Assembly (NCBI RefSeq): GCF_013391105.1
Contig: NZ_CP058335.1
Coordinates: 2,790,001-2,854,000 of the forward strand
Reading direction: 5' to 3'
DNA length: 64,000 nt
Origin: Natronomonas salina
GTDB lineage: Archaea > Halobacteriota > Halobacteria > Halobacteriales > Haloarculaceae
Part shown: positions 17,970 to 19,150 of the stretch, piece after piece
Layout: the number at the start of each line of letters is the position of its first letter
Position numbering within the stretch: position 1 is the stretch's first letter
Notes under the pieces: generated by a model
What the model was told of the DNA's origin: nothing
The model's database searches: none
Seen by the model: the letters and a program-made list of their open reading frames with translations, nothing else
Made by a program: the position numbers and the translations under genes

Positions 17970-18269
17970 ATGGCCAACAAGGGCAAGACCGGGAGCGCCG
18001 GCCGCTTCGGCGCGCGGTACGGGCGCGTCGCCCGCCGCCGCGTCGCGGAGATCGAGGCCGACACCGAGGACGCGACCGTCGACGGCGACGCCGTCAAGCG
18101 CGTCGGCACGGGCATCTGGGTCAACGAGGAGACCGGCGAGAAGTTCACCGGCGGCGCCTACCGTCCGCAGACGCCCGCGGGCAAGACCGTCACTCGCTCC
18201 ATCCGCGCGGCGCTCAGCGATGGCGACGACGAGGGCGCCTTCGGCGACGAAGCCGAGGAAGCGGAGTAA
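17970..18269 (+). CDS. rpl37ae: Large ribosomal subunit protein eL43 (L37Ae), zinc-free form
   Basis: The 99-residue protein has the family N-terminus ([22 protein letters not shown]) split from the C-terminal [17 protein letters not shown] block by a short middle segment. Most archaeal and eukaryotic eL43 proteins carry two CxxC pairs there; this copy has none and reads [20 protein letters not shown]. Its C-terminus has an acidic tail. It is followed directly by rpoP and pcc1. A GGTTTATCC box lies about 31 nt before the ATG. Confidence 0.88.
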
Positions 18270-18284
18270 CCCCACCGATAGCTC

Positions 18285-18419
18285 ATGAGCTACAAGTGCT
18301 CCCGCTGCAAGCGCGACGTCGAACTGGACGAGTACGGCGGCGTCCGCTGTCCGTACTGCGGCCACCGCGTCCTGCTGAAGGAGCGGAGCCGCGACGTCAA
18401 GGAGATCAACGTCGACTAG
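18285..18419 (+). CDS. rpoP: DNA-directed RNA polymerase subunit P
   Basis: This 44-residue protein has the zinc motif CSRC near the start and CPYCG further on, followed by the basic [15 protein letters not shown] tail, as in archaeal RpoP (Rpb12 homologue). It is a structural subunit that contacts Rpo3 in the polymerase assembly platform. It lies 15 bases after the eL43 gene, an arrangement common in archaea. Confidence 0.93.
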
Positions 18420-18431
18420 CCGTCGGATAGT

Positions 18432-18674
18432 GTGCACGCTGCCGACCTGGTTTTCACCTACGACGATGCCCGGGCAGCCGCGCTGATCGTCGACGCCATC
18501 TCCCAGGAGGTCGACGAGATCGAGGGCGACCGGACGACCGCGACCGTCGAGCGGGACGGCCGCGAGGTCCGCGTCGACATAGACGCCGACGACCTCGTCG
18601 CCCTGCGGGCCGGCCTGAACACCTGGAGTACGCTGGTCCAGGTCGCAGAGCGGATGGTCGAGGCCGGCGCGTAG
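18432..18674 (+). CDS. pcc1: KEOPS complex subunit Pcc1
   Basis: From GTG 18432 the protein has 80 residues and the Pcc1 pattern: a beta-strand start, a long helix (ARAAALIVDAISQEVDEI), and a C-terminal helix (LRAGLNTWSTLVQVAERMVE). Pcc1 dimers form the core of KEOPS, which makes N6-threonylcarbamoyl adenosine in tRNA together with Kae1. It lies 12 bases after rpoP and is probably in the same transcript. Confidence 0.88.
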   Translation: MHAADLVFTYDDARAAALIVDAISQEVDEIEGDRTTATVERDGREVRVDIDADDLVALRAGLNTWSTLVQVAERMVEAGA

Positions 18675-18751: not shown

Positions 18752-19150
18752 ATGCAGGGTAACCTTCCGCCGGAGGCCCAGGAGAAGATCGAGGAACTCC
18801 AGGACCTCCAGGAGACCGCACAGCAGGTCGCACAGCAGAAACAGCAGGCCGAGACCCAGCTCCAGGAGTCGAAGACGGCGCTGCAGACCCTCGACGATGT
18901 CGAGGGCGACACCCAGATGTACCGCGAGGTCGGCGAACTCCTCATCGAGACGGAGTACGACGAGGCCTACGACGACCTCGAGGAGAAGATCGACAGTCTC
19001 GAGGTCCGCACCCAGACCCTCGAGAAGCAGGAGAACCGCGTCCAGGAGCAGTTCGAGGAGCTCCAGGAGGAGCTCCAGCAGATGCTGCAGGGCGGCGCCG
19101 GTGGCGGCGGCCCGATGGGACCGGGCGGCCCGGGCGCGGGCGGCGCGTAG
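18752..19150 (+). CDS. pfdB: Prefoldin subunit beta
   Basis: The 132-residue protein starts [19 protein letters not shown] and consists of two long coiled coils rich in Gln, Glu and Leu, joined by a short hairpin. It ends in an unusual Gly-rich tail ([13 protein letters not shown]). Four beta subunits and two alpha subunits form the jellyfish-shaped chaperone that captures unfolded proteins for the thermosome. The gene lies directly upstream of a DUF3194 gene, as in other haloarchaea. Confidence 0.93.

Follow-up and report, generated by a model that had tools for sequence, protein, structure and literature searches.

The cysteine-free eL43 (L37Ae) encoded in the window is probably an ordinary ribosomal protein, the only eL43 of its genome, which does without zinc and carries a single old haloarchaeal module that has passed from one lineage to another and displaced the zinc form. 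The window, a stretch of 64,000 nucleotides, covers positions 2790001-2854000 of a one-contig genome (3,746,575 bases, 99.84% complete). The gene and its surroundings comprise the following features, with a DUF2103 gene and truD lying upstream.

17970..18269, + strand: gene for the zinc-free form of eL43 (L37Ae); 99 aa and a stop codon, sole eL43 found in the genome
17991..18056, + strand: conserved N-terminal segment, residues 8-29; mostly invariant in an alignment of 23 zinc-free proteins
18057..18161, + strand: zinc-free core, residues 30-64; 35 aa versus 39 in most cysteine-bearing relatives
18078..18089, + strand: VDGD, residues 37-40, where the zinc form has its first CxxC knuckle; a turn predicted from sequence
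18123..18140, + strand: NEETGE, residues 52-57, where the zinc form has its second CxxC knuckle; a turn predicted likewise
18162..18212, + strand: conserved C-terminal segment, from the alignment of zinc-free proteins
18285..18419, + strand: rpoP (RNA polymerase subunit P) with intact C4 zinc ribbon; profile match
18432-18674: pcc1, downstream of rpoP
18752-19150: prefoldin beta gene, downstream of pcc1

The eL43 gene of the window

A profile match over the entire protein assigns the ORF to the eL43/L37Ae family. It scored 81.9 bits against Pfam Ribosomal_L37ae (PF01780; cut-off 21.9), a profile that does not require the finger, and passed NCBIfam NF003058 (87.2, cut-off 87); the score for TIGR00280 (76.2) lay under the cut-off of 95.8. 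Translation of 17970-18269 gave 99 residues with 0 Cys and hence no C2-C2 zinc finger, as an earlier note on this DNA had claimed. That note also described the linker correctly: the residues it quoted are present, and zinc-form relatives among the haloarchaea have a middle longer by 4 residues. Its statement that both flanking segments are kept was borne out by alignment. In the eL43 family, these end segments serve to bind rRNA. The core of 35 residues compares with 39 in cysteine-bearing haloarchaeal eL43 and 42 in three loci of family f2, and the places of the cysteines appear to be occupied by two turn-like acidic stretches, VDGD and NEETGE. With 0 Cys, a 35-residue middle and turns of both types, the protein fits the zinc-free haloarchaeal form. 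The acidic C-terminal tail (18213-18266) is longer than in the seven other copies of genus group g1, to which the window genome belongs; those copies stop 5 or 6 residues past the RSIR(A/T)A segment. In the window, eL43 and rpoP are separated by 15 bases (18267-18287), whereas 10 of the 11 relatives inspected (L007, L011, L027 and others) have an rpoP start that overlaps the stop codon of eL43 as ATGA.

The consensus of 107 distinct zinc-free middles, taken without loci with a misassigned start, reads IE..M.NA.VDGD.V.R.GTGIW.NEETGE.F.GGAY at modal length. Both turns were nearly constant, and G11, V14, R16, G20, W22, T27, G28 and F31 (counting the I of IE as 0) were invariant; among these are the glycine and one valine of the first turn, the tryptophan, and T-G in the second turn. 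The core is constrained, but more loosely than the ends, since dN/dS in eight Natronomonas genomes was 0.21 for the core, 0.09 for the C part and 0.008 for the N part (28 pairs, short segments). The compensation by acidic contacts that the earlier note proposed is possible but weak, as zinc-free middles are only somewhat more acidic (D+E 21.0% in 115 distinct sequences versus 17.0% in 84 distinct zinc-form ones). An AlphaFold model built from 23 zinc-free sequences was poor (mean pLDDT 51), and its order of elements (helix 22-33, strands 40-46, 49-52 and 58-60) carries no weight. VIA-align of the model gave weak matches, with H. marismortui eL43 in five of the first six rows (Z 3.0-3.1), followed by SH3 domains (Z 2.3-2.8); the absence of the solved chain 9l94_R from these matches carries no meaning.

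The check for a second paralogue suggested by the earlier note yielded a single eL43. In the whole-genome PF01780 search one gene lay above the cut-off, followed by four weaker matches of 8.7 to 14.9 bits, and the 3.75 Mb genome yielded no second, cysteine-bearing eL43 above the cut-off. Across the order, 287 of 293 genomes gave a match with E up to 1e-5, one each, and no genome with two eL43 was seen among the 287; the six genomes without a match are 58-72% complete. It is extremely improbable that the protein of the window is a specialised or non-ribosomal paralogue and that the true eL43 was overlooked. The diverged middle and the score under the TIGR00280 cut-off would fit such a paralogue, but the genome is a single, nearly complete contig with only this eL43, the gene stands ahead of rpoP in every one of 180 loci, and a solved cysteine-free chain carries the name eL43.

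Distribution of the zinc-free and zinc forms

The best PF01780 scores were bimodal, with E-values from 7.7e-36 to 8.3e-27 and from 1.4e-23 to 6.1e-19 and an empty gap between them. A search with the protein of the window as query split the genomes into the same two groups in reversed order. By a hand count from profile scores, about 150 of the 287 haloarchaeal genomes have the zinc-free form. Family counts, which likewise come from scores, showed it in 60/60 genomes of f4, 61/62 of f7 and 14/60 of f1, the family of the window, as well as in six genomes each of f5 and f14, two of f6 and one of f13. The zinc-free members of f1 belong to the genus groups g1 (8/8), g8 (3/3), g12 (2/2) and g10 (1/3). 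The distribution is interspersed, and both forms occur within a single genus in g10, g17, g25 and g26. The lone zinc-form genome among the 62 of f7 is G285 (locus L107), which pairs on 23S with the zinc-free G261, Haloarchaeobius iranensis. Another f7 locus, L170 (G205), is zinc-free and opens with MGNQEVGSAGRF, as do most zinc-form eL43 of g17, a genus of f5; this may be one more case of exchange.

Sequence reading covered 180 genomes, 90 per class, which as a chosen set give no frequency, as well as 80 named loci that are zinc-free throughout because a zinc-free query had selected them; at least 15 of the latter duplicate genomes of the 180 set. Of these 260 loci, 170 had 0 Cys and a 35-residue core, and 90 had four cysteines (one had five) and a core of 39 or 42 residues. 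No intermediate between the two forms occurred among the 260. Outside the order, a DNA pattern for the second turn matched in 3 of the 203 genomes searched from the phylum, counted whether or not an eL43 was present, and none of the three matches lay in an eL43, judged by reading frame. Within the order, by our own count, the pattern was present in 23 of 28 zinc-free genomes in the set searched.

Genus names could be attached through DNA-identical eL43 loci. Three g1 genomes were identical over 600-base stretches to Natronomonas aquatica, Natronomonas sp. LN261 and Natronomonas sp. CBA1123, and in the same way g8 corresponds to Halovenus (two genomes), g12 to Halocatena (one) and g81 to Haloarchaeobius (two). 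The zinc finger is absent in all eight genomes of the Natronomonas genus group, and also in Halovenus and Halocatena; all three genera are placed in the order Halobacteriales at NCBI. The available part of PMC8305020 (2021) reports that the eL43 of Haloferacales and of almost all Natrialbales is without the C2-C2 finger, and states that all Halobacteriales keep it. Our three genera depart from that statement, to which the supplement of the paper may list exceptions. The zinc-free eL43 as such is therefore already known. It does not stand as an oddity of this genome: the earlier note had named wide occurrence as the finding that would speak against its reading, and the form is published and widespread.

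Zinc supply

We considered whether the missing finger is an adaptation to low zinc supply, as the earlier note had suggested and as is conceivable by analogy with bacterial C+ and C- ribosomal proteins (PMC3087516, available part). The rpoP of the window retains its cysteines (CSRC and CPYC), and a C4 ribbon pattern follows within 230 bases downstream of eL43 in 180/180 loci, with either form of eL43. The eL37, eL42 and eS27 of the same genome have four cysteines each, eL42 having been identified by eye next to eS27. The check covered these four ribbons. Since all four are intact, an economy of zinc across the whole ribosome was rejected. A C+ partner, as would accompany a C- paralogue of the bacterial type, is absent from the window genome, which has one eL43 only, and the bacterial pattern of zinc and zinc-free copies side by side does not occur here (0/287 genomes). 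Zinc sparing is thus very unlikely, and the zinc-supply interpretation is unsupported.

Switching of the class on the 23S tree

To span mixed families, 80 genomes were picked, of which 71 had a 23S match and 60 a near-complete gene that was used. On the resulting tree at least 12 class changes were needed, versus a mean of 19.3 and a minimum of 12 in 500 shuffles, indicating that the eL43 class is partly inherited and often switched. For 31 of these genomes, picked from mixed groups, 10 class changes were needed, and a single zinc-free clade was rejected on 23S (lnL 1223 lower, p-AU 0.0008). 23S itself recombines in haloarchaea. The same constraint was not rejected with an alignment of only the ends of eL43 (118 rows of 108 nt, p 0.39), which are too conserved to reject one zinc-free clade, nor with rpoP joined to a part of pcc1 (p 0.20, 94 rows), a set that leaves out loci where the rpoP start overlaps the eL43 stop. 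A scan of 23S columns over seven zinc-free/zinc contrasts gave no signal of rRNA compensation: one column reached 4/7 net, but among 63 sign-flipped controls 41 had a best column that scored at least 4.

Possible exchange within the gene

In mixed genera the ends of the gene tend to follow the species, while the middle appears to follow the zinc class, and the affinities of the gene's surroundings differ from those of its middle. In g26, the upstream 250 bases of the zinc-free G065 match the zinc-form G057 at 0.88 and the zinc-free G014 at 0.67, whereas its core matches G057 at 0.70 and G014 at 0.90, which places a breakpoint between upstream region and core. The gene ends in the g26 trios favour neither partner (e.g. 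6:7, 3:5), the conflict lying only between surroundings and core and not within the gene. Other trios showed the conflict inside the gene. Counted at sites where the two partners differ, G077 sided with its zinc-form genus mate G034 over the zinc-free G117 upstream (72:8) and in the gene start (15:5), with G117 in the core (7:30), and again with G034 in the C part (10:2) and downstream (32:15). For G256, the ratios of zinc-form G206 to zinc-free G000 were 11:2 in the gene start, 7:36 in the core and 11:2 in the C part. Among ten hand-picked trios, the 5' part differed from the core at p <0.05 in nine, as did the 3' part, the exceptions being two different trios (p 0.54 and 0.13).

We extended the comparison to all trios for nine zinc-free focal genomes, with 26 alignable core codons and 36 end codons. 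Agreement with zinc-form relatives was 0.57-0.79 in the ends of eight focal genomes (0.45 in G028) and 0.22-0.34 in the core. Ends exceeded core at p <0.05 in 139, 173 and 199 of 252 trios for the g26 genomes, 603 and 639 of 672 in g17, 134 of 152 in g10, 352 and 305 of 616 in g32, and 11 of 89 for G028. Ten zinc-form controls gave 0.53-0.87 for the ends and 0.63-0.94 for the core, with 0 to 4 significant trios each. This test is inflated, as class-defining residues force cores of the same class to agree, and it was therefore repeated on synonymous sites only. Measured against foreign zinc-free genes, agreement dropped in seven of the eight focal genomes, from 0.58-0.75 in the ends to 0.36-0.61 in the core, with no drop in G014; against foreign zinc-form genes six of eight dropped, while G014 and G256 rose. 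Drops were also seen in 7/12 zinc-form and 8/13 zinc-free controls. The mean drop against foreign zinc-free genes was 0.20 for the focal genomes (n = 8, non-independent, from four groups), 0.03 for the zinc-form controls (n = 12) and 0.02 for the zinc-free controls (n = 13), a difference with p 0.025 and 0.033, respectively; with foreign zinc-form genes it was 0.09 versus 0.01 (p 0.23). Synonymous sites thus lean towards replacement of the middle by foreign DNA, without proof, as controls overlap the focal genomes. Homologous recombination between genera is frequent in haloarchaea, according to the available part of PMC4500145.

Origin of the interspersed distribution

The pattern might be explained if the zinc ligands had been lost many times independently and the gap filled convergently by the same turns. 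The alternation of both forms among close relatives is compatible with repeated loss, as is the weakness of the synonymous-site evidence for replacement of the middle. We nevertheless consider it unlikely, since all 170 zinc-free loci have the 35-residue core without any intermediate and since VDGD and NEETGE are nearly constant in the 107 distinct middles. A stronger competitor is the exchange of whole eL43 genes, with ends that look native only through their strong conservation. The ends do carry little signal, those of the g26 trios are undecided, and the synonymous-site controls overlap the focal genomes; the ratios along the genes of G077 and G256, with both ends siding with the zinc-form partner and the core with the zinc-free one, argue against it, and we regard whole-gene exchange as doubtful, yet a serious possibility. 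That the metal-binding middle is an interchangeable cassette, swapped many times by intragenic recombination between species and families without detectable 23S compensation, is a tentative reading to which we give somewhat less than an even chance.

Spread of the module by recombination is the likeliest explanation, perhaps by events inside the gene, for which step the evidence is modest. According to this preferred model of a mobile module, the CxxC knuckles that hold zinc would have been replaced by the two short acidic turns, and the small ribbon between the rRNA-binding ends would fold and sit on rRNA without metal. The module would be one old invention of haloarchaea that spread from lineage to lineage and displaced the zinc form at its own locus. 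In several instances this may have happened through intragenic recombination, which would leave the ends with the host sequence. We infer that the module had a single origin with transfer as the cause of its distribution, and that the protein of the window itself folds and enters the ribosome without metal. Loss of the finger need not be neutral, given that the available text of PMC8305020 recalls its importance in the yeast protein. L37Ae is described as lying near the subunit interface with many rRNA contacts (PMC12605026, in part).

These results correct what has been printed on the retention of the eL43 zinc finger among haloarchaea. They supply natural pairs of species within one genus that differ in this one ribosomal module and so allow a direct approach to the function of structural zinc in a ribosomal protein. 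They further suggest that not even ribosomal proteins are exempt from exchange, which may be partial, and care is therefore needed with haloarchaeal trees that use eL43 as a marker. As far as the literature was searched, with subscription journals and preprints largely outside, PMC8305020 was the sole treatment of haloarchaeal zinc-free eL43 found, and no report of an exchange of the eL43 middle was found. Within that scope, the zinc-free form in Natronomonas, Halovenus and Halocatena is new, as are the frequent switching on the 23S tree and the lean towards exchange of the gene middle.

Comparison with known systems

HVO_0654, listed without the finger in the available part of PMC8305020, is the same zinc-free protein as that of the window. 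The solved chain 9l94_R, named eL43, likewise has 0 Cys over the aligned 79 of 89 residues and shares the VDGD and NEETGE turns; its closest examined locus belongs to an f4 member (85% identity over the stretch). The eL43 of Haloarcula marismortui (3cpw_Y, 1s72_Z) has ends like those of the window protein, with 3cpw_Y aligning over residues 3-86, but differs in its four cysteines and a middle 4 residues longer. Bacterial S4, as described in the available part of PMC3087516, resembles eL43 in having zinc and zinc-free forms (C+ and C-) of one ribosomal protein, the distribution of which was attributed to horizontal transfer. Both forms of S4 occur together in 26 of 660 genomes, compared with 0 of 287 for eL43, and in eL43 it may be a part of the gene, not all of it, that was exchanged.
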